Assembly (NCBI GenBank): GCA_902796555.1
Contig: CADBPR010000071.1
Span: 1 to 35,584 of the forward strand
Origin: an uncultured Bacteroidia bacterium
Lineage (GTDB): Bacteria > Bacteroidota > Bacteroidia > Bacteroidales > UBA932
Reading direction: 5' to 3'
DNA: 35,584 nucleotides
Part shown: piece by piece, positions 2,014 through 13,741 of the stretch
Layout: each line of letters opens with the position of its first letter
Position numbering within the stretch: the first letter of the stretch is position 1
Translations under genes and position numbers: made by a program
Notes under the pieces: generated by a model
Told to the model about the DNA's origin: nothing
Databases searched by the model: none
What the model saw: only the letters and a program-made list of their open reading frames with translations

Positions 2014-3156
2014 ATGATTCTCGACGCGATTCTCCTGTTCCCCTACTGGCTGTCCCTCAAGGTCCGCCACGCCCTCTTCGATGCCGGTATCCTCAAGGTA
2101 CACCGCAGCGAAGTCCCCACCATCTGTATCGGCAACCTGGCCGTCGGCGGCACCGGCAAGACCCCGCACACGGAAATGATTCTGGACCTGCTCCAGAACA
2201 GCGCCCAATGGGGCAACAGCCAGCTGGCGGTGCTCTCGCGCGGATATAAGCGCAAAAGCCGGGGCTTCCAGCAGGTCATGCGGGACGGAACGGCCTCCCA
2301 ATACGGGGACGAACCCCTCCAGATCAAGAAAAAATTCCCCGCCGTAACGGTGGCGGTGGACAAGGACCGGATTGAAGGCTGCCGCTTCCTCTGCCATCCC
2401 GACGCGCTGCAGACGGACAAAAAGGCCCGCAAATGCCTGAACAAAGACCTTCCGAAGGCCGACCTGATTGTCCTCGACGACGCCCTGCAATACCGCAAGC
2501 TCCTGGCGGACATCAACATCGTTCTGACAGACTGGAGCCGTCCGCTGTCCAAAGACGCCCTGATGCCCTTGGGCCGGCTTCGCGACCTTCCCCAGCGGCT
2601 GAAGACGGCGGACATTGTCATCGTCACCAAATGCCCGGCCTACATGGAAGACTGGGAACGGATGGAATGGGCCGCGTCACTGGGCATCCGCAATTTCAAT
2701 CCGGAGCGCTGCGAAGGCCTGTTCCGGGGCGGGAAACCGGTGAAACTGTTCTTCACCCAGATTGTCTATTGCCCGATGCAGCCGGTCTTTGAAAACGGCG
2801 ACGCGCACTATATCTATTCCAAGAAACTGGTCCTGTTCTCCGGCATCGCGAAAGACACGCCCCTGCGCCGCTACCTGAGCGACCGGTACCAGGTCGTCAA
2901 GAAGTTCCGCTTCCCCGACCACCATGCCTACACCGGTGCGGACATCCGCACGCTGGATGCGGCCGCCCGGCAATGGCCCACGGCCGTCATCGCGACAACG
3001 GAAAAAGACAGCCAGCGCATCCTGGACTGCAAAGGCGTCCCGGAGAGTCTGCAGCACCGCATGTTCCAGGTACCCATCGAAACAGCCTTCCTGACCGAAC
3101 GGGAAAAGGCCTGCTTCTCCGACACCCTCCTGAGCCTGCTCCAGCAGAACCGTTAG
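2014..3156 (+). CDS. lpxK: Tetraacyldisaccharide 4'-kinase (lipid A synthesis)
   Basis: Adds the 4'-phosphate to the tetraacyl disaccharide precursor of lipid A at the inner face of the inner membrane, so the organism makes lipopolysaccharide. The 380-residue product starts with a hydrophobic segment (MILDAILLFPYWLSL) and has a Walker A loop GNLAVGGTGKTP (40-51) typical of LpxK. VLDDALQYRKL occupies the place of the family DDxFQHR motif, with Tyr instead of His. FPDHHAYT near residue 300 carries the conserved His pair. Its ATG abuts the pfkA stop with no gap. Its stop overlaps the convergent DAHP synthase gene by 4 nt (3153-3156), leaving no space for a terminator. Confidence 0.93.
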   Translation: MILDAILLFPYWLSLKVRHALFDAGILKVHRSEVPTICIGNLAVGGTGKTPHTEMILDLLQNSAQWGNSQLAVLSRGYKRKSRGFQQVMRDGTASQYGDEPLQIKKKFPAVTVAVDKDRIEGCRFLCHPDALQTDKKARKCLNKDLPKADLIVLDDALQYRKLLADINIVLTDWSRPLSKDALMPLGRLRDLPQRLKTADIVIVTKCPAYMEDWERMEWAASLGIRNFNPERCEGLFRGGKPVKLFFTQIVYCPMQPVFENGDAHYIYSKKLVLFSGIAKDTPLRRYLSDRYQVVKKFRFPDHHAYTGADIRTLDAAARQWPTAVIATTEKDSQRILDCKGVPESLQHRMFQVPIETAFLTEREKACFSDTLLSLLQQNR

Positions 3157-4244
3157 CTCTCCAGAATCTCGTTCTGCGTCTGGACGGAAGCCTCGTGAAT
3201 GGCATTGAACACAGCCGTCACAAACTTCTCGGACAGGCCGAATTCCGCCCCTTTGCTGACCATTTCGGCCAGCAGGCTGTCCCAGCGGGAAGTCTGCACG
3301 ATGGCGATGTTATGGTCCTTTTTATACTGCCCGATTTTGCGGCTGATTTCCTGCCGCGACTTCAGCATATACAGCAGATTCTCGTCCAGGATGTCAATCT
3401 GGGCACGCAGCTGGTGAATGCCGCTCTTGTAATCCTCGTCTGACGAGTCTTTCTCGCGCACCAGCAAGGAGGCGAGCATTTCGCCCAGCACCTTGGGCTC
3501 CAGCTGCTGCTTGGCATCGCTGAGGGCACAGGAAGGGAAGCAGTGCGACTCAATCATCAGACCCTCGAAACCCAGGTCCAGCGAGCGCTGTGAAAGCTCT
3601 TTGATGAATTTCCGGTCACCGCCCATGTGGCTCGGGTCGGCAAAGAAAGGCAGGTCGGGATAGCGGGTGCGCAATTCAACGGCCAGCTGCCAGCCGGGCG
3701 CGTTGCGGTAAGCTATCTTCTCCGAAGTGGAGAACCCGCGGTGAATCACGCCGAGCTTGCGGATTCCGGCCCGGTTCAGCCGCTCCAGGGCTCCGATCCA
3801 CAGGTCGATATCCGGATTGACCGGGTTTTTCACCAGCACCGGAATGTCTGTATCTTTCAGCGCATCAGCGATTTCCTGCATCAGGAAAGGGTTGGCCGTC
3901 GTACGGGCGCCCACCCAGACCATATCCACGCCGAATTTGATACACTCATAGACATGCTTCTCACTGGCCACCTCGGTACATACCTTCAGGCCGTACGCTT
4001 TCTGCACCTTCCGGAGCCATTTCAGGCCCTCGGTCCCGACACCTTCAAAGCTGCCGGGGTGGGTGCGCGGTTTCCAGATGCCCGCACGGAAAACGTGGAT
4101 ACCTTCGTCTGCGAGACCTTTGGCGGTCTCCATCACCTGCTGCTCGGTCTCGGCGCTGCAGGGGCCCGCGATGACCATCGGCCGCGGAAGGGTGAAAAAG
4201 CCCCATTCTGTGACCGGGACCAGGTCCAATGTCTTTGCCATCAT
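3153..4244 (-). CDS. Bifunctional DAHP synthase / chorismate mutase (type II)
   Basis: Catalyses both the first step of the shikimate pathway (PEP + erythrose 4-phosphate to DAHP) and chorismate to prephenate. Residues 1-265 form a type I-beta DAHP synthase barrel: AGPCSAE (26-32), FRAGIWKPRT (52-61), WVGART (110-115), VLVKNPVNPD (136-145), GVIHRGFS (165-172) and DPSHMGGDR (203-211). Residues 270-360 form an AroQ-type mutase helix bundle with LRAQIDILDENLLYMLKSR (279-297). This fusion is common in Bacteroidota. It is the last gene of the aromatic operon; its ATG shares one base with the tyrA stop (TAATG), implying translational coupling. Having the mutase beside prephenate dehydratase and dehydrogenase channels carbon to Phe and Tyr. 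Confidence 0.95.
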   Translation of the reverse strand: MMAKTLDLVPVTEWGFFTLPRPMVIAGPCSAETEQQVMETAKGLADEGIHVFRAGIWKPRTHPGSFEGVGTEGLKWLRKVQKAYGLKVCTEVASEKHVYECIKFGVDMVWVGARTTANPFLMQEIADALKDTDIPVLVKNPVNPDIDLWIGALERLNRAGIRKLGVIHRGFSTSEKIAYRNAPGWQLAVELRTRYPDLPFFADPSHMGGDRKFIKELSQRSLDLGFEGLMIESHCFPSCALSDAKQQLEPKVLGEMLASLLVREKDSSDEDYKSGIHQLRAQIDILDENLLYMLKSRQEISRKIGQYKKDHNIAIVQTSRWDSLLAEMVSKGAEFGLSEKFVTAVFNAIHEASVQTQNEILES

Positions 4245-5098
4245 TATCGTAATATTTTTTTAATCCGGTTGGCTTCGTGGATGAGCGATTCGATGCGGTC
4301 CTGGTCGCCGGCAGCGATGGCCTCTCGAAAATCTTTCATCTTATCGATATATGTATCAATTACTTGCAGGACATTATCCCGGTTCTGCGTCAGAATCGGC
4401 ACCCACATTTCGGCGTTGCTCTTGGCCAGCCGGACGGTAGAAGAAAAACCGCCGGAAGCCAGGTCGAAGATGTGTTTTTCGTCCCGCTCCTTGTCCAGCA
4501 CGGTCAGCGCCAGGGCAAAGGAAGTGACATGCGAAATATGCGACACATAGGCCGTATGGACATCGTGGTTGTCGGCATTCATATAGGTCGGACGCATATT
4601 CAGCACATCGTACAGCTGCTCCACCGTCCGCAGGGCCTTGTCGGAGGATTCTTCGGCATTGGCGAAAATGCAGGCGCGGCCGTCGAACAGGTTCGGCATG
4701 GCCGCCCACGGGCCGGAATACTCCGTACCGGCCATCGGGTGGGTGGCGACGTATTGCTCCCGGCAGGGGTGGTAGTGGACGCTGCGTACAATCCGGCTTT
4801 TGGTCGAACAGGTATCGATGACGATCTTATCCCCCGCACCGGCCGCCTGGAAACGGTCCAGGATATCCGGCAGCATCTTGACGGCCGTCCCCACCGGCAC
4901 GGCTATCACGACGATGTCGCTCCGGCTGATGCAGTCTTCATATGAGACCAGTTCATCGGCCAGCCCCATTTTCTCCGCGGCCGCCGCATGCACCGGGTCG
5001 GCTTCCACGCCCAGCACCGTCCGGGCGAAACCCCGTCGCTTCAGGTCGATGGCCATCGAGCCGCCGATCAGGCCCAATCCAATGACTCCCAGTATCAT
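4244..5098 (-). CDS. tyrA: Prephenate dehydrogenase
   Basis: Oxidatively decarboxylates prephenate to 4-hydroxyphenylpyruvate with NAD(P), the tyrosine branch. The 284-residue product begins with the Rossmann fingerprint GVIGLGLIGGSMA (4-16), followed by VEADP at the end of strand beta-2. The TyrA motifs IDTCSTKS, THPMAGTEYSG and SHISHVTSFALA follow, the last with the conserved catalytic-site His residues. There is no fused mutase or ACT domain; the mutase is supplied by the next gene. Its start overlaps the aminotransferase stop by 4 nt (ATGA) and its stop shares one base with the next ATG. Expression should follow the leader attenuator at 7134-7260. Confidence 0.94.
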   Translation of the reverse strand: MILGVIGLGLIGGSMAIDLKRRGFARTVLGVEADPVHAAAAEKMGLADELVSYEDCISRSDIVVIAVPVGTAVKMLPDILDRFQAAGAGDKIVIDTCSTKSRIVRSVHYHPCREQYVATHPMAGTEYSGPWAAMPNLFDGRACIFANAEESSDKALRTVEQLYDVLNMRPTYMNADNHDVHTAYVSHISHVTSFALALTVLDKERDEKHIFDLASGGFSSTVRLAKSNAEMWVPILTQNRDNVLQVIDTYIDKMKDFREAIAAGDQDRIESLIHEANRIKKILR

Positions 5099-6294
5099 AA
5101 GGCTTTCACTTTTCGGATGGCCGCCTCCAACTGTTCCACCGGGGCGCAGAGGGAAGCGCGGATATAATCCTGACCGTTCCGGCCGAAGACCATGCCGGGC
5201 GTCACGAAGACGCCGGCCTCATACAACAGTTTGTCGGAAACCTGCTCGCCGAGGGTCTTGGCCGAATCGCCGCTGAGGAAGCGGTTGTCCTCAGACACCC
5301 GGCCCCAGACGAAGAGTCCCTGGGAATGGGGGTTATATGCAACACCCAGCAGGTCAAACAGTTCACACACTTTTACCAGCCGTTCCCGATAGGCCGCATT
5401 GAGCTGCGCAAACCAGTCGGGTCCCTGCTGCAGAGCCTTGATGGCGGCCAGCTGCAGCGGACGGAACATGCCCGAATCCATCTGGCTCTTGACCTTCAGC
5501 ACTTCGGCGATGTAGTCCTTGTCTCCGCAGACCATACCGATACGCCATCCGGACATATTGTGGGCCTTGCTGAGGGAATTCAGTTCCAGGCAGCAGCTGC
5601 GGGCGCCGGGCACGGACAGAATGGACACCGGGTGGTCATTGAGGATAAAACTATATGGATTATCGTTGACAATCAGAATGTTATGCTTATTGCCAAAGGC
5701 CACGAGCCGGGCATAGGTATCCGGATGCGCCGGTGCGCCGGTGGGCATATTGGGGTAATTGACCCACATCAGCTTGACCCCCCGCAGGTCCATGGCCTCC
5801 AACGCGTCGAAGTCCGGCTGCCAGCCGTTTTCCGCCCGCAGGTCGTAGGTACACATCTCGGCACCGACCAGGCGGGAGGCGGAGGTATAGGTCGGATAGC
5901 CCGGGTCGGGGACCAGAACCTTGTCGCCCGGATTCACAAACGCCATGGAAATCAAGAGAATACCCTCTTTTGACCCCATCAGCGGCTGGATTTCCGAAGC
6001 CGGGTCGATGGAAACCCCGTAATAACGCGCATACCAATCGGAGAAGGCACTGCGCAGTTCAGGCAAGCCCCTGTAATTCTGGTATTTATGGCTATCCGGC
6101 AGCAAGGCGGTTTCGCGCAGGGTCTCAACGGCGGCCGCCGGCGGCATCCGGTCCGGAGCACCGATGCCCAGGTTGATGACGGGGTCTTCACCGCGGGCCA
6201 CACGCTCGGCGCTCAACCGGGCGATTTCGGGATTTTTGACAGAGAAGTAATAAGGCCGGACGCTTTGGGTCCGGATGGCGGGTTGTATTATCAT
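5095..6294 (-). CDS. PLP-dependent class I aminotransferase, probably aromatic
   Basis: Fold-type I aminotransferase of 399 residues. Visible features are the N-terminal INLGIGAPD (40-48), YQNYRGLPELR (71-81), the GSKEGILL cofactor loop (107-114), NYPNMPTG (179-186), NDNPYSFI (210-217) and the PLP lysine in NSLSKAHNMSGWRIG (K243). By sequence alone it falls among LL-DAP/aspartate-type aminotransferases. Its place between prephenate dehydratase and prephenate dehydrogenase suggests that it transaminates phenylpyruvate and 4-hydroxyphenylpyruvate to Phe and Tyr; this substrate choice is inference. It starts 5 nt after the pheA stop and overlaps tyrA by 4 nt. Confidence 0.88.
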   Translation of the reverse strand: MIIQPAIRTQSVRPYYFSVKNPEIARLSAERVARGEDPVINLGIGAPDRMPPAAAVETLRETALLPDSHKYQNYRGLPELRSAFSDWYARYYGVSIDPASEIQPLMGSKEGILLISMAFVNPGDKVLVPDPGYPTYTSASRLVGAEMCTYDLRAENGWQPDFDALEAMDLRGVKLMWVNYPNMPTGAPAHPDTYARLVAFGNKHNILIVNDNPYSFILNDHPVSILSVPGARSCCLELNSLSKAHNMSGWRIGMVCGDKDYIAEVLKVKSQMDSGMFRPLQLAAIKALQQGPDWFAQLNAAYRERLVKVCELFDLLGVAYNPHSQGLFVWGRVSEDNRFLSGDSAKTLGEQVSDKLLYEAGVFVTPGMVFGRNGQDYIRASLCAPVEQLEAAIRKVKAL

Positions 6295-6299
6295 AATGA

Positions 6300-7118
6300 C
6301 TAAATTTCAGATGGATATTCTCCCAGTACGGTCAAATCCTCAATCAAAGGACGCACCGCCGAGAGCGCCTGGGTAAAGCGCGGATAATCGTCAAATTTGA
6401 TGTCGGCATAAAAGAAATACTGCCATTCCCGACCCGGAATCGGAAGGGACTGGATACGAGTGAGGTTCATGTCATAAAAGGACAGGATGGTAAGGATATG
6501 GGCCAACGAACCGGGTTTGTGCGGCAAGGTAAAGCAAAGCGAGGCCTTCGTGCGCTGCGCCTCGGGAACGTCGATAGCGTCGTCCAAAATTAGGAAACGG
6601 GTAAAATTCTGTTTATACGTCTCGATACTCGTCCGCAAAATTTCCAGTCCATAGCGTTCAGCCGCGACGACGGAACCGACGGCGCCGACGCCCCGAAGCC
6701 CTTCCCGGGCTACTTCCGCCGCACTCTTTGCCGTATCTTCGGACTCGACCATCTTGATCCAGGGACATTCTTTTTCGAAAAACGCACGGGTCTGATTGAT
6801 GGCCATATAGTGGGTACGGACCTCCCGGATATCTTCCAGCCGCTGCCCCGGAAGGGCCATCAGATTCTGGTGAATGGGCAGGTACACCTCGCCTTTGATA
6901 CGGACCGGATGCTGGCGGAGCAGGTCGAAATTGGGAATCAGACCACCGGAGATGGTGTTTTCAATGGCCATGACCACGGCATCAGCGGCACCGCCCTCCA
7001 GGGCCTGGAATTCTTCGGCGAAGGTGGCGCATTCCACGATGTCAGCCTGCCCGTAGAAACGCCGGGCCGCCTCCTCATGGAAGCAACCGGAAAATCCTTG
7101 TATGGCTACTCGTGTCAT
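6300..7118 (-). CDS. pheA: Prephenate dehydratase with ACT domain
   Basis: Converts prephenate to phenylpyruvate, the phenylalanine branch. The 272-residue product starts MTRVAIQGFSGCFHEEAA and has ENTISGG (53-59) and the catalytic NFTRFLIL in the PDT domain. A C-terminal ACT domain holds KPGSLAHIL and NLTRIQSLPIPGREWQYFFY. The phenylalanine-binding ESRP motif of classical enzymes is replaced by IQSLP, so feedback may be altered. An in-frame start at 7232 is rejected: it would translate through the attenuator terminator. The ATG at 7116-7118 lies 15 nt past the terminator's U run. First structural gene of pheA-aminotransferase-tyrA-DAHPS/CM. No fused chorismate mutase. Confidence 0.94.
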   Translation of the reverse strand: MTRVAIQGFSGCFHEEAARRFYGQADIVECATFAEEFQALEGGAADAVVMAIENTISGGLIPNFDLLRQHPVRIKGEVYLPIHQNLMALPGQRLEDIREVRTHYMAINQTRAFFEKECPWIKMVESEDTAKSAAEVAREGLRGVGAVGSVVAAERYGLEILRTSIETYKQNFTRFLILDDAIDVPEAQRTKASLCFTLPHKPGSLAHILTILSFYDMNLTRIQSLPIPGREWQYFFYADIKFDDYPRFTQALSAVRPLIEDLTVLGEYPSEI

Positions 7119-7133
7119 ATTCGTTCGTTTGAT

Positions 7134-7164
7134 AAAAAAAAGCCGCCCGAAACATCCGGACGGC
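7134..7164 (-). terminator. Attenuator terminator (region 3:4) of the aromatic operon
   Basis: Minus-strand hairpin GCCGTCCG (7164-7157), 7-nt loop, CGGGCGGC (7149-7142): 8 bp with one G.U pair, followed at once by eight T (7141-7134). This is a textbook intrinsic terminator, and it lies between the leader peptide and pheA rather than after a gene. Its 5' arm overlaps the antiterminator partner at 7161-7154. Confidence 0.88.
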
Positions 7165-7217
7165 CTATATACACCTATACACGCAATGCCCGGACTTTTA
7201 CCGTTTCTGATAAAAGT
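7154..7217 (-). promoter_or_regulatory. Alternative RNA structures of the aromatic attenuator (regions 1:2 and 2:3)
   Basis: Three mutually exclusive pairings can be drawn. 1:2 is ACUUUUAUC (7217-7209) with GGUAAAAGU (7202-7194), 9 bp with a 6-nt loop; its 3' half contains the leader stop codon and its 5' half lies in the last Tyr-Phe-Tyr codons. 2:3 (antiterminator) is GUCCGGGC (7195-7188) with GUCCGGAU (7161-7154), 8 bp including two G.U pairs. 3:4 is the terminator. A ribosome stalled on Y14/Y15 would cover region 1 and free region 2 to form 2:3. A ribosome reaching the stop codon would cover region 2 and allow 3:4. Pairings were found by eye; energies were not computed. Confidence 0.8.
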
Positions 7218-7260
7218 AGTAATCAAAGCCAAAAGCGTAGTATCGAGCGTTCTTTCTCAT
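7198..7260 (-). CDS. Aromatic operon leader peptide (8 Tyr/Phe of 20)
   Basis: A 20-codon ORF reading MRKNARYYAFGFDYYFYQKR then TAA. Five Tyr (7, 8, 14, 15, 17) and three Phe (10, 12, 16) make 40% of the peptide, and four of them are consecutive (YYFY). It lies immediately upstream of the attenuator structures and of the pheA operon that makes exactly these two amino acids, so its job is almost certainly to sense charged tRNA-Tyr and tRNA-Phe by ribosome stalling, as in enterobacterial pheA and trp leaders. The ATG is only 8 nt from the -7 box, so the transcript would begin within a few bases of the start codon. The peptide itself is unlikely to have another function. Confidence 0.88.
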   Translation of the reverse strand: MRKNARYYAFGFDYYFYQKR

Positions 7261-7268
7261 AGCAGTTA

Positions 7269-7276
7269 CAAAGATA
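7269..7276 (-). promoter_or_regulatory. -7 promoter element of the aromatic operon
   Basis: TATCTTTG on the minus strand, a perfect TAnnTTTG. No TTG is seen at the expected -33 position (about 7297-7300), so the upstream element is weak. The predicted start of transcription near 7265 gives a 5' UTR of about 5 nt before the leader peptide ATG at 7260. Confidence 0.6.
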
Positions 7277-7318
7277 AGGAAAAATCCGTAACGTTGTACC
7301 CCGGCGGGAAAATAATTG

Positions 7319-8551
7319 CTAACGAATCGTCCCTATGAAAACAACTGCGCCCGTCTCCTCGTGTGTAATAACGAAGAGAAAAGGATGGTCAGCCCTAAAT
7401 TCAATAGCGTCAACAGGCTCTGCTGTTTCTACCAAAGAAGCAGCACTGGCAGCCGCGGCTTCAGTTCCATTCTCATTAACCTCTATCTCTGCTTTCTGGA
7501 ACATTTCGTTAACCACAATACCCATGTCCGACATTCTTGAAAAGTCCGCACCGGGTCTAAATATGGACGAGATTCCAAGCGTAGGAAGGATATCCCGAAA
7601 ATCAGTTTTAGAGGAAACTTTAAACTTTGGAAGACTGATGGCAACACTGGCAACCTTTTCCGCTTTCACTTGACGTGTCCAGGAATCATTGCTCAGTTCA
7701 TTTAACAGGGTATTCAAATCGTTCCCTTCAGCAGGCAAAAGAATACGCATGGCATATCCGCCTCTGTAAGGGAGGCACACGGATTGGGCCATATTCGTTC
7801 TGGCATATGCGAAACTTTCAACAGCCTGCATAGTAGGGACGAGACGCTTGCCTGTATCACCATAAAAATCACTTGTAGTCGTATACTCTGGCAGGAAGGG
7901 AGTTTCCCATAGCCCTTTGAAATAAAGAGCATTAACAACATATGCAAACGCTTGCGGATCCAACCTTTCCAGCATTTTGGGAATGAACGATTCCGTTTGG
8001 TCCGACACCCAGCCATTGATATAATCCAGCGTATTTTCAGCGTCAGAGAAGTCCAGATTGACTACCAACGATTCATAGTGCTCCCGGGCCCGCTTGATAT
8101 AAGTGTCCAATAATTGATACTGATTATCAACTACTACGGCATTCGCAACCCTAAAAGACACTTCCTTAGATTGGGAAGCAATCGCCTCCATGTCAAGACA
8201 AAACTGGTCTAATTTATCAGATGTCGCATCTTTTATACCAATAGCCTGATAGATTTCTTCTATTGTCTTTCCAGCCGTCCCACTGGCCAGCATACCAAGT
8301 AAAAATGTTCCGCTCATCGGAGAATATACGAAACTTTCCCCTGTTTTGGCCAGTTGCTTTCTTGCTAACGAAAAGCCATACTGATTGCATGACGCCAGAA
8401 TATCTTCCTGGGACTTGGTTAAAACGGGAGCAGTCTCATATCTCAGCATCTCATAATTCTTCCAAGTTTCAGTAATCGGAGTATCATTCTTTGCAGGCTG
8501 ACAAGACACCAAAACCCCTGTGATTAAGGTGGCAAATACGTACTTTTTCAT
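7319..8551 (-). CDS. Serpin-family protease inhibitor, lipoprotein
   Basis: A 410-residue serpin with an N-terminal lipoprotein signal (MKKYVFATLITGVLVSC, lipid Cys17), so probably anchored in the envelope. Serpin features: NALYFKGLWETPF (207-219), the C-terminal HPFLFVITH (389-397) and an inhibitory hinge. The hinge ENGTEAAAASAA (360-371) has Gly at P15, Thr at P14 and small residues P12-P6, which is expected of inhibitory and not merely structural serpins. Counting 17 residues from E360 puts P1 at Thr376 and P1' at Ala377, with Glu at P2. It begins 5 nt after a C10 cysteine protease gene and must be co-expressed with it. The region is AT-richer than its neighbours. The target protease is unknown; the adjacent C10 enzyme is a candidate by context. 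Confidence 0.93.
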   Translation of the reverse strand: MKKYVFATLITGVLVSCQPAKNDTPITETWKNYEMLRYETAPVLTKSQEDILASCNQYGFSLARKQLAKTGESFVYSPMSGTFLLGMLASGTAGKTIEEIYQAIGIKDATSDKLDQFCLDMEAIASQSKEVSFRVANAVVVDNQYQLLDTYIKRAREHYESLVVNLDFSDAENTLDYINGWVSDQTESFIPKMLERLDPQAFAYVVNALYFKGLWETPFLPEYTTTSDFYGDTGKRLVPTMQAVESFAYARTNMAQSVCLPYRGGYAMRILLPAEGNDLNTLLNELSNDSWTRQVKAEKVASVAISLPKFKVSSKTDFRDILPTLGISSIFRPGADFSRMSDMGIVVNEMFQKAEIEVNENGTEAAAASAASLVETAEPVDAIEFRADHPFLFVITHEETGAVVFIGTIR

Positions 8552-8556
8552 AATGA

Positions 8557-9849
8557 TTATTTTTTACATTGGAACTGGAAATTATAAACTAAATAATTAA
8601 TAGAGCTATAGGAGTTTCCACCGACATACCATGTACTATCCATATTATACCATATCGTGCTACCTCCGCTGGCATCGCCTGTTCCGTTCCACCCCCAATT
8701 AACTGCAACATAATCCGTTACAGTAGTGGTTCTTTCCGGTTGTGCATTGTCCGAATTTCCCGCCTCCGATGAAAGAGGATACGCATCGAGGACAGCCGTT
8801 TCTCTTCGGAACCCGTCTATTACAACTGCATGTCCAATCAAGCCCGCACCTACCGGCATCTGTCTGTTCATAATCTGATTATATAAGATGGTTTTGAATT
8901 GACTACTGGTGTATGTTTTTTGACTTGAAATACCAAAATTTGAATCAAAAACTTGAGTTGTCTTATATAGGGCAGAGGATGTTCCAGTTGTCATATAATG
9001 TGCTTGAAATAGGTATCCTAACCGAACCATTAAAGCCGAAACATATGTGGCGCTCCCTGTCCCTGATTGTGTCAATCGCATTTGAGACCAGATATTCTGC
9101 ATGCTAGATTGGGTATAAAAGATATCGGACAGGCCCAGCACCAAATAAGAGGCCCCATCCGGGATATATGAGTCCGACGCACTGAAATACCCGTAGGTCT
9201 TAGCGGGCTGACCTATTTTGAAATGAAGATAGTATAACAACTGAGCAGCTGCAACCATAACACATCCTGTACGACAATGGGTAGTCATGTTAGAATCTGT
9301 GTAAGGAGCATAAATATTCCATGGTGAGCTTTGTCCCCATTTTGTTACAAGTAGATGATCTTGCTCTTCCACAGTTACTGAACGCAGTTCTTCACGGGCG
9401 TTCTGACTGTCATTATAAGATACAGAAGAATCTCCATCCAACGACCTCAAGGATTTAATGTTACGCGCCATTGAAGTAAGATAATCAGACTCTGCCTCAT
9501 TGAAATACAAATCCTGTATGCTAATTGAGCCGGATAAGCATTTCATCAGTACTTTCGGAGTCCTTTTATCTGCAGAAAGCAATTCCCAGCCTTCGTCATA
9601 ATTAATCAGATAAAAAACTGTATCTGATTCAAAGATAAAAGGCTCTATTGTTACTTTATCAAGAGCCTTAGTTAGTTCATATCCTTTGTAGACCTGAAGA
9701 TATTGACGCAAACCATCTCTAGTAACGCGGAATGAACAATCATCAGTATCTTTGTCAAATAATTGAGAATCAGCCTTTTCGTTAATGGACATCTTTGAAC
9801 ATGCAAAGGCTGCCAGAAGCACGACAAATGTCAGAAAAATCTTTTTCAT
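8557..9849 (-). CDS. C10-family (streptopain-like) cysteine protease, lipoprotein
   Basis: Papain-fold cysteine protease of 430 residues, exported as a zymogen. The signal MKKIFLTFVVLLAAFAC ends at a probable lipid-modified Cys17. Residues 18-165 have the size and position of a Spi-type inhibitory prodomain. The catalytic domain carries the nucleophile in CRTGCVMVAAAQLL (Cys196), the general base in IGHAVVIDGFR (His340) and the VNWGWNG segment (383-389) that lines the active site in streptopain. All key residues are present, so it should be active after propeptide removal. It is the first gene of a two-gene unit with a serpin, under a good promoter at 9891-9922. Base composition is lower in GC than in the flanking biosynthetic genes, consistent with acquisition. 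Confidence 0.93.
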   Translation of the reverse strand: MKKIFLTFVVLLAAFACSKMSINEKADSQLFDKDTDDCSFRVTRDGLRQYLQVYKGYELTKALDKVTIEPFIFESDTVFYLINYDEGWELLSADKRTPKVLMKCLSGSISIQDLYFNEAESDYLTSMARNIKSLRSLDGDSSVSYNDSQNAREELRSVTVEEQDHLLVTKWGQSSPWNIYAPYTDSNMTTHCRTGCVMVAAAQLLYYLHFKIGQPAKTYGYFSASDSYIPDGASYLVLGLSDIFYTQSSMQNIWSQMRLTQSGTGSATYVSALMVRLGYLFQAHYMTTGTSSALYKTTQVFDSNFGISSQKTYTSSQFKTILYNQIMNRQMPVGAGLIGHAVVIDGFRRETAVLDAYPLSSEAGNSDNAQPERTTTVTDYVAVNWGWNGTGDASGGSTIWYNMDSTWYVGGNSYSSINYLVYNFQFQCKK

Positions 9850-12376: not shown

Positions 12377-13741
12377 TTATTGATTCAGCGAATCGGCGCT
12401 CTGGCGGAACTTGGCCAGCTCCTCGTCGCTGATGTGGAAGTCCACGATGCTTCCGCCGAAGTACTGGTCGTAGGCGCTCATATCCACGAAGCCATGGCCG
12501 GAAAGGTTGAACAGAATCACCTTCTCCTCGCCGGTCTCCTTGCACTTGAGGGCCTCGCGGATGGTGGCTGCGATGGCATGGCAGCTTTCCGGAGCAGGGA
12601 TGATGCCTTCCGTACGGGCAAAAAGGACACCGGACTTGAAGGACTCTGTCTGCTCGATATCGACCGCCTCCATCAGCCCGTCTTTCATCAGCTGGGACAG
12701 AATCACGCCCGCACCATGATAACGGAGACCGCCGGCATGGATGCTGGCCGGTTTGAAGGTATGGCCGAGCGTATACATCGGCAGCAGCGGGGTCATGCCG
12801 GCCTCGTCGCCGAAGTCGTACTCGAATACGCCGCGGGTCAGTTTCGGGCAGGAAGCGGGTTCAGCAGCAATGAAACGGGTCTTCTTGCCTTCCCGGATAT
12901 TGTGGCGCATGAACGGATAGGCGATACCGCTGAAGTTGGAACCGCCGCCGAAGCAGCCGATGACCACATCGGGATACTCGCCGGCCATCGCCATCTGCTT
13001 TTCAGCCTCGAGTCCGATAACGGTCTGGTGCAGGCACACATGGTTCAGCACGGAGCCGAGGGCATACTTGCAGTTCGGGGTGGAAACGGCCAGTTCGATG
13101 GCTTCCGAGATGGCGCAGCCCAGGGATCCGTTGTCATTGGGATTCTTCGTGATGATATCCTTGCCGGCACGGGTGGACATGGACGGAGACGGGGTAATGG
13201 TAGCCCCGAAGGTGTTCATGATGGACCTGCGGTAAGGCTTCTGGTTGTAGCTGATTTTGACCATATACACCGCACATTCGATACCGAATTTCTTGCAGGC
13301 GTAGGACAGGGCGCCGCCCCACTGGCCGGCACCGGTCTCGGTGGTGATATTGGTGATACCCTGCTTCTTGGCATAGTAGGCCTGGGCCAGGGCGGAATTC
13401 AATTTGTGGGAACCGGCCGGGGATACACTCTCGTTCTTGAAATAGATGTGGGCCGGGGTACCGAGGGCCTTCTCCAGGTCATAGGCACGTACGAGCGGGG
13501 TGCAACGGTAGGAAGCATAAGCCTCGCGAACCTCCTCGGGGATGGGAATCCATTCGTCCGTGACATTGAGTTCCTGGTTGGCACATTCCTCACAGAAGAT
13601 GGGATAGAGGTCCTGTGCGGTCAGCGGTTCACGGGTGGCCGGATTGAGGATGGGGAGCGGTTTGTTGGGCATGACTGCCTGCATGTTGAACCATGCCTGG
13701 GGAATTTCGCTCTCGGGGAGCATGAATTTCTTCTGTTTCAT
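12377..13741 (-). CDS. trpB: Tryptophan synthase beta chain-like protein, TrpB2 type
   Basis: PLP enzyme that condenses indole with serine to tryptophan. At 454 residues, and with an extended N-terminus (PxxWFNMQAVMP...NPATREPL...DEWIPIPEEVREAY), it is of the TrpB2 class, which usually lacks tight TrpA coupling. Motifs: PLP Lys113 in SPAGSHKLNSA, catalytic Glu135 in TETGAGQWG, and the phosphate-binding GCFGGGSNFSG. No other trp gene is nearby, so it may serve as an indole-salvage enzyme or as the sole beta chain. Transcription passes through a leader peptide with three Trp codons and an attenuator (13769-13900), which supports a genuine role in Trp supply. Confidence 0.94.
   Translation of the reverse strand: MKQKKFMLPESEIPQAWFNMQAVMPNKPLPILNPATREPLTAQDLYPIFCEECANQELNVTDEWIPIPEEVREAYASYRCTPLVRAYDLEKALGTPAHIYFKNESVSPAGSHKLNSALAQAYYAKKQGITNITTETGAGQWGGALSYACKKFGIECAVYMVKISYNQKPYRRSIMNTFGATITPSPSMSTRAGKDIITKNPNDNGSLGCAISEAIELAVSTPNCKYALGSVLNHVCLHQTVIGLEAEKQMAMAGEYPDVVIGCFGGGSNFSGIAYPFMRHNIREGKKTRFIAAEPASCPKLTRGVFEYDFGDEAGMTPLLPMYTLGHTFKPASIHAGGLRYHGAGVILSQLMKDGLMEAVDIEQTESFKSGVLFARTEGIIPAPESCHAIAATIREALKCKETGEEKVILFNLSGHGFVDMSAYDQYFGGSIVDFHISDEELAKFRQSADSLNQ

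Follow-up and report, generated by a model that had tools for sequence, protein, structure and literature searches.

Features of the pheA Locus

The window, the whole 35,584-nt stretch of DNA that was analysed, comes from an uncultured Bacteroidia bacterium. Its minus strand carries pheA, an aminotransferase gene, tyrA and a gene for DAHP synthase/chorismate mutase. A short region upstream of pheA contains a promoter-like box, a small leader ORF rich in aromatic codons, and RNA segments that can pair in alternative ways (Table 1). A ribosome-mediated attenuator sensing Tyr and Phe had been proposed here in an earlier sequence-only reading, and all of its elements were present in the sequence at the proposed positions. 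The four-gene order was retained in 34 of 35 leader loci, window included, and the four genes are presumably co-transcribed. Farther upstream, a serpin gene (7319-8551, minus strand) adjoins a C10-family cysteine peptidase gene (8557-9849, minus strand); the two are possibly an inhibitor-protease pair.

Table 1. Positions of the predicted attenuator elements and operon genes in the window
Feature	Position	Strand	Basis or remark
-7 box TATCTTTG, Bacteroidetes-type promoter	7276-7269	-	sequence; motif centred at -7 (PMC7366714, cited section)
Leader peptide ORF MRKNARYYAFGFDYYFYQKR, 20 codons	7260-7198	-	ATG 7260; stop TAA 7200-7198
Longer 1:2 structure, leader ORF with segment 2 and following stretch	7172-7249	-	weak in window, stronger in relatives
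9-bp hairpin (P1a) around stop codon, ACUUUUAUC with GGUAAAAGU	7217-7209 / 7202-7194	-	fold
Segment 2, GUCCGGGC (also given as GTCCGGGC)	7195-7188	-	pairs with segment 3
Antiterminator hairpin 2:3 with AU-rich extension	7155-7195	-	-19.2 kcal/mol, z -3.4
Segment 3, GUCCGGAU (also given as GTCCGGAT)	7161-7154	-	overlaps terminator 5' arm
Intrinsic terminator 3:4 with eight-U run	7134-7166	-	-18.4 kcal/mol, z -4.6
Eight T after terminator	7141-7134	-	sequence
pheA, prephenate dehydratase	6300-7118	-	Pfam PF00800; start at 7118
Class I/II aminotransferase	5095-6294	-	Pfam PF00155
tyrA, prephenate dehydrogenase	4244-5098	-	Pfam PF02153, PF20463; NCBIfam NF006307 over cut-off
DAHP synthase / chorismate mutase	3153-4244	-	Pfam PF00793, PF01817

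The promoter is a match to the -7 motif only, because no -33 element was obvious by eye upstream of the box. Transcription is predicted from this box to start at about 7265-7266, and eight bases separate the box from the leader ATG. No Shine-Dalgarno sequence was seen for the leader ORF of the window. The leader contains five Tyr and three Phe codons. At least eight such codons among 20 would be expected with P ~4e-4, when the Phe/Tyr frequency in the pheA genes of the leader loci is taken as background.

The energy of the antiterminator hairpin was equalled by 2 of 200 shuffles and that of the terminator by none of 200. For the longer 1:2 structure of the window, z was -0.7, which is not significant. 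The 8-bp antiterminator of the sequence-only reading was confirmed. Its 8-bp terminator with eight U was found as a core (7164-7157 with 7149-7142), which the minimum-energy fold extends to 12 bp (7166-7155 with 7151-7140). The 9-bp hairpin had been read as the 1:2 structure, and the three pairings as mutually exclusive. The hairpin does exist, with the leader stop codon in its 3' half, and its 5-pair core was paired in 97.6% of cells among 34 distinct sequences. It overlaps the antiterminator by only 2 nt, and both are present in the minimum-energy fold of 7264-7154; therefore it is not the competitor of segment 2, and mutual exclusion of the three pairings does not hold. The hairpin was rejected in the role of an exclusive 1:2 stem, and the candidate competitor, a larger 1:2 structure, is weak in the window. 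RNAalifold on the genus leader alignment predicted only the 9-bp hairpin and the terminator; the longer 1:2 structure was instead tested by swapping strands between sequences.

Conservation in Close Relatives

A protein scan gave 436 confirmed relatives, and the best 80 of the 436 pheA loci were kept, almost all from Bacteroidales or Bacteroidia. A homologous leader ORF was readable in 34 of the 80. In one additional locus (L021) the leader was cut by a contig end and still matched the covariance model; no recognisable leader was found in 45. The set of 35 genus leaders includes the window; it derives from 35 rule-based candidates, of which L009 was dropped as a chance ORF, and L020 was added. 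The ORFs of L013 and L015, the start codons of L004 and L039 and the terminator of L007 were set by hand. The leader frame of L013 is shifted near its end and passes through segment 2 to a later stop.

Of the 648 residues in the 35 leaders, 142 are Tyr and 138 are Phe, and none is Trp. Each has at least three Tyr and at least one Phe, and the typical form is M..RFSAYGYFYFYFQKR. In the structure-annotated alignment of the genus, 95.8% of cells were paired and 42 cells were changed on both sides. Shuffling gave a mean of 12.4 such cells, and sliding the partner by one to three columns gave at most 13. Counting the pairs that show a change on both sides (7) discriminates less well, as a count of 8 occurs in one slid version.

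Strands were swapped between genus sequences less than 65% alike, with permutations over all 35 sequences that ignore relatedness. The mean energy of the 1:2 structure was -17.4 kcal/mol for cognate and -12.5 kcal/mol for swapped strands, and that of the terminator -17.8 and -12.9 kcal/mol; none of 5000 permutations reached the cognate mean in either case. The 2:3 core of the antiterminator showed no covariation beyond chance within the genus (946 of 5000 permutations), because its CCGG hardly varies there. For the AU-rich extension of the antiterminator, cognate strands were better than swapped ones (5 of 5000 permutations).

Distribution in the Family, Order and Class

The covariance model gave matches in 48 of 299 family genomes, three of which (G133, G152, G214) rest on false places alone. 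The weaker places were read in 20 of 21 cases, one in G223 being left out. Thirteen lay upstream of pheA and one upstream of an aminotransferase-tyrA pair; the other six, whose stretches match none of the four operon proteins, were taken as false. The pheA products at the 13 places were 42-49% identical to that of the window. By eye, segment 2 is typically GGCGGGAG and segment 3 CTCCTGCC; the segment sequences at these places are new, and the predicted 2:3 and 3:4 pairings are kept. The place upstream of the aminotransferase-tyrA pair (L120, turned to match strand) has an aromatic leader, MRLFNAFGFYYYFFYSKRGGSVIV, and a terminator, with the covariance match at 1615, the aminotransferase match at 1820 and no pheA match in the stretch. 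In three family loci (L113, L117, L118) the leader ORF crosses segment 2 and stops just beyond it, like most leaders of the order and class.

In the order, 119 genomes were searched and 52 had a pheA match; in the phylum, 118 were searched and 102 had one. Upstream regions were taken from all 50 order-level matches outside the genus of the window and from 30 of 101 phylum-level matches, nearly all top-ranked. Among these 80 regions, 78 were long enough (L155 and L173 were left out). Under a loose rule, an aromatic leader ORF was found in 62 of 78 regions, against 181 of 1560 Markov shuffles and 6 of 78 reverse strands. The strict rule called for an ATG, 12-35 codons, at least six and 30% Phe/Tyr codons, and then a terminator before pheA. 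It was passed by 54 of 78 regions, 1 of 780 dinucleotide shuffles and none of 78 reverse strands; its ORF part alone was passed by 19 of 780 dinucleotide shuffles. No leader was found under this rule in 24 regions. By kinship, passes amounted to 36 of 48 in the order, 16 of 21 in the same class and 2 of 9 in other classes of the phylum. As far as sampled, the leader-terminator element appears common in the class and rarer outside it. One region upstream of pheA (L192) contains the Flavo-1 RNA motif at 452-529 (78.6 bits).

The search for antiterminators was started downstream of the last aromatic codon of the cluster. At p<=0.05, segment 2 paired with the terminator 5' arm better than shuffles did in 43 of 54 leaders of the order/class and in 21 of 35 of the genus; the window had p 0.046. 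Earlier versions of the search gave 25 and 32 of 54 in the order/class and 8 of 35 in the genus; the counts were lower because trailing aromatic codons or a late stop cut off segment 2. Strands were also swapped over 58 sequences of all levels, the four genus representatives among them hand-picked. Cognate and swapped means were -12.9 and -8.5 kcal/mol for 2:3 and -16.0 and -8.1 kcal/mol for 3:4, with 0 of 5000 permutations in both. Taken singly, the cognate strand ranked in the best 5% of swapped ones in 20 of 58 sequences for 2:3 and 44 of 58 for 3:4; the window ranked at 0.053 and 0.009. The 2-3-4 core differs between lineages while both alternative pairings, as predicted from sequence, persist.

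The sequence-only reading had named conservation of the leader ORF and stems in relatives as the check on its proposal. Both were found in close relatives and in the 54 more distant regions, though many related loci have no leader. The aromatic codons are conserved and the stems covary, and this conservation is regarded as decisive evidence that the elements exceed chance. A ribosome-mediated transcription attenuator upstream of pheA is predicted with very high confidence.

Proposed Mechanism and Ribosome Position

Transcription would start just upstream of the 20-codon leader ORF. A shortage of Phe-tRNA or Tyr-tRNA would stall the ribosome on a clustered aromatic codon; F12, Y14, Y15, F16 and Y17 are best placed for this. 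The stalled ribosome would leave segment 2 free, and 2:3 pairing would form before segment 4 is made. RNA polymerase would then continue into the four genes. When both tRNAs are charged, the ribosome at the stop codon would cover segment 2 and the 3:4 terminator would form. This mechanism as a whole is highly likely to be the best explanation, at a confidence slightly below that for the attenuator itself.

The spacing was investigated in rows with an antiterminator at p<=0.1 (30 of 35 genus, 46 of 54 order/class). The median gap from the last clustered aromatic codon to segment 2 was 14 nt in the genus and 9.5 nt in the order/class; in the window, segment 2 begins 14 nt past the last Tyr codon. 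The front edge of a ribosome waiting on the last aromatic codon lies approximately where segment 2 begins. The stop codon lay beyond the start of segment 2 in 37 of 46 order/class rows and at or before it in 9, and the terminating ribosome should cover segment 2 for either position.

The RNA ahead of a ribosome placed on each codon was folded, with the ribosome edge at 12 nt. In the window, the probability of the terminator was 0.02-0.03 at F12, Y14, Y15, F16 and Y17, about 0.5-0.7 at Y7, Y8 and F10, and 0.81 at the stop codon. The sequence and the model of the window fit the freeing of segment 2 on stalling and its covering at the stop codon. At equilibrium, just 3 of the 35 genus and 13 of the 54 order/class leaders switched cleanly; edges of 9 and 15 nt gave 2-3 and 11-13. 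Such switches were few because the complete terminator usually pairs more strongly than its alternative.

The RNA was also cut before segment 4, which mimics a polymerase just past segment 3. The probability of the antiterminator was then 0.97 in the genus and 0.98 in the order/class on aromatic codons, compared with 0.65 and 0.31 at the stop codon; the window gave 1.00 and 0.51. The difference exceeded 0.3 in 14 of 35 genus and 46 of 54 order/class leaders, and none was reversed by more than 0.3. Strict limits were passed by only 4 of 35 and 39 of 54. Should the model hold, switching would depend on which RNA segments are made first, as it does in classical attenuators.

When the leader was left untranslated, the modelled probability of the terminator was 0.30 in the window, against a genus mean of 0.84 (33 of 35 above 0.6). 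A 1:2 structure hiding segment 2 in untranslated RNA is supported in the genus by strand swap and model, and it is not significant in the window. The untranslated leader of the window is predicted to read through more than those of its relatives.

Amino Acids Presumably Sensed

All 35 genus leaders, and 53 of the 54 order/class leaders, contain both Phe and Tyr codons. The codon pattern fits joint sensing by an operon that makes both amino acids, although it is not proof. Sensing of both Tyr and Phe is considered fairly probable, and a shortage of either would then be sufficient. Alternatively, the same attenuator may in practice sense only Phe or only Tyr, with the other codons arising from RNA pairing or from the easy exchange of TTT and TAT in a U-rich leader. 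A precedent exists in Corynebacterium glutamicum, whose AroR leader contains Phe-Tyr-Phe and responds to limitation of Phe only, Tyr availability having no effect (PMC11802643). The leader nucleotides here also pair with RNA downstream, and codon choice is therefore not free. In addition, TTT is favoured far more in the 35 genus leaders (82:56) than in the pheA genes of the same loci (89:424); this preference could aid stalling or keep the RNA unpaired. Against single sensing, both codons occur within the last six cluster positions in 32 of 35 genus and 52 of 54 order/class leaders, the operon makes both products, and in the model both Tyr and Phe codons of the window stand at effective stall positions. 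Single sensing is rated rather unlikely.

Trp codons in the leaders were compared with the capacity for Trp synthesis: a Trp codon was present in 17 of 54 order/class leaders, 16 of 46 with TrpC and 1 of 8 without it (p 0.41). The genome assembly of the window (83% complete) gave no match to HisG, chorismate-binding (trpE-type) enzymes or TrpC, and a single HMGL-like match. The absence of HisG and trpE-type matches left no his or trp attenuator within the genome for comparison. TrpC was missing from 22 of the 26 leader-bearing genus genomes searched, including that of the window. In a genome that lacks tryptophan synthesis, most of the flow through the operon's DAHP synthase would likely end in Phe and Tyr, and control of the enzyme by these two would be sensible. 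A TrpB-like (trpB_rel) enzyme is encoded at 12377-13741 (minus strand) in this genome, in which TrpC and chorismate-binding enzymes were not detected; it may use salvaged indole.

Other Explanations and Known Systems

A constitutive terminator next to a chance ORF or an independent small-protein ORF, with no regulation, would resemble L016 and L034, in which, by eye, a promoter-like box is still followed by a terminator-like stem and no leader ORF is present. Such an arrangement is extremely improbable: ORF and terminator occur jointly in 54 of 78 regions and in just 1 of 780 shuffles, and antiterminators were found beyond chance in both sets of leaders. Control by a T-box, an amino acid riboswitch, an RNA-binding protein or another trans-acting factor instead of the ribosome is hardly more probable. 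The 1:2 structure of the genus is large and its own strands fit better than swapped ones, as those of an aptamer could; against this, the aromatic codons and their spacing to segment 2 would be left unexplained. No Rfam family reached its gathering score in the window, and no T-box was among the 13 matches up to E 10 at 7090-7330. The best sub-threshold match, MicF (27.8 bits, cut-off 79), was taken as chance and rejected as an identity. The Phe_leader family RF01859 scored 14.0 bits (E 7.7), below its cut-off of 55, and the attenuator of the window is not a member.

The predicted ribosome-mediated attenuator shows these features of the trpL/pheL type: a leader ORF rich in codons for the end products, a terminator before the first gene, an antiterminator that uses the terminator 5' arm, and a spacing suited to freeing or covering segment 2. 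The exception is the 1:2 structure, which is supported in the genus and not significant in the window. In pheL-pheA of Escherichia coli, the position of the ribosome decides between terminator and antiterminator. That system (RF01859) likewise has a leader peptide upstream of pheA, and charging of Phe-tRNA sets its expression (PMC11802643, as described in the cited section). Its leader is for Phe only, while the window has Tyr and Phe codons and a four-gene operon with tyrA and DAHP synthase. The aroR-aroF system of C. glutamicum also has Phe and Tyr leader codons and controls a DAHP synthase (PMC11802643); it belongs to another phylum, only Phe limitation acts, and it is likened to the window through the description of its leader in that section.

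The closest case concerns the same gene and phylum. A conserved structured 5' element upstream of pheA, and strong clues for leader-peptide attenuation of amino acid operons, have been described in Flavobacterium psychrophilum and the Flavobacteriaceae (PMC9723704); the cited section gives no leader sequence or mechanism for the element. The element of the window was resolved here to ORF, segments and spacing and followed through the order and class. Leader-like short ORFs in long 5' UTRs are mentioned in general terms for B. thetaiotaomicron (PMC7366714, cited section). Within the part of the open-access literature surveyed, with subscription papers mostly outside it, nothing closer than the Flavobacteriaceae pheA element was found. 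The sequence-only reading had called a dual Tyr/Phe leader in Bacteroidales no textbook example. The novelty is smaller than that implied, given the Flavobacteriaceae report, and the switch extends far more widely than one genome. Ribosome-mediated attenuation is a known mechanism, and this predicted instance is well supported and widespread. The switch is probably a real example in which ribosomes gauge the supply of Phe and Tyr and stop or allow transcription. Its distribution points to attenuation by ribosomes as an ancient, frequent means by which Bacteroidia control the synthesis of aromatic amino acids.

Predicted Translation Start and Probable Loss of the Attenuator

The leader ATG follows the -7 box after a gap of 7-9 nt in 17 of the 35 genus leaders, 16-24 nt in 17 and 62 nt in one. 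In the order/class, a -7-type box was found within 90 nt in 38 of 54 leaders, and only two of these had the 8-nt gap. With the Bacteroidetes promoter motif centred at -7 (PMC7366714), the 17 short-gap genus leaders would have a 5' UTR of about 5 nt, and near-leaderless initiation is predicted for them. In the sections cited, only about 3.7% of 5' UTRs are given as shorter than 10 nt in B. thetaiotaomicron (PMC7366714), and 5.5% of mRNAs as leaderless in F. psychrophilum, a species whose initiation is described as not depending on Shine-Dalgarno signals (PMC9723704). The translation start signals of Bacteroidia differ from those of E. coli, and the attenuator offers a defined, testable system for transcription-translation coupling without Shine-Dalgarno sequences.

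In a subset of loci, frr, identified as ribosome recycling factor, lies upstream of pheA. There the two genes are 164-451 nt apart in all 29 loci with the leader, and -4 to 101 nt apart in all 32 that lack it. On a quick pheA tree of 81 sequences, presence and absence of the leader required 12 changes, and well-supported branches forced at least three. Given the occurrence of the leader across the wider group, losses by deletion likely account for most of the changes, the deleted stretch lying between frr and pheA. Sister species that lack the attenuator offer natural controls.

A more general picture can be put forward tentatively, at somewhat less than even confidence. A class-wide attenuator of Bacteroidia would read Phe and Tyr supply jointly, from translation starts not reliant on Shine-Dalgarno sequences. 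For half of the leaders in the genus of the window, only some 5 nt would separate the leader ORF from the predicted 5' end, and the ribosome would have to load on the tip of the nascent RNA. The pairing core would have been rewritten wholesale between lineages with its logic kept, and repeated deletion would often have left pheA directly behind frr.

In L016 and L034, the box and the terminator-like stem, followed by a T run, lie just upstream of pheA; they are perhaps the remains of a deleted attenuator. In the attenuator-free L003 (82% PheA identity), a promoter-like box, TATTTTTG, was seen by eye 8 nt before the pheA start, a spacing that resembles that between the box and the leader ORF in the window.
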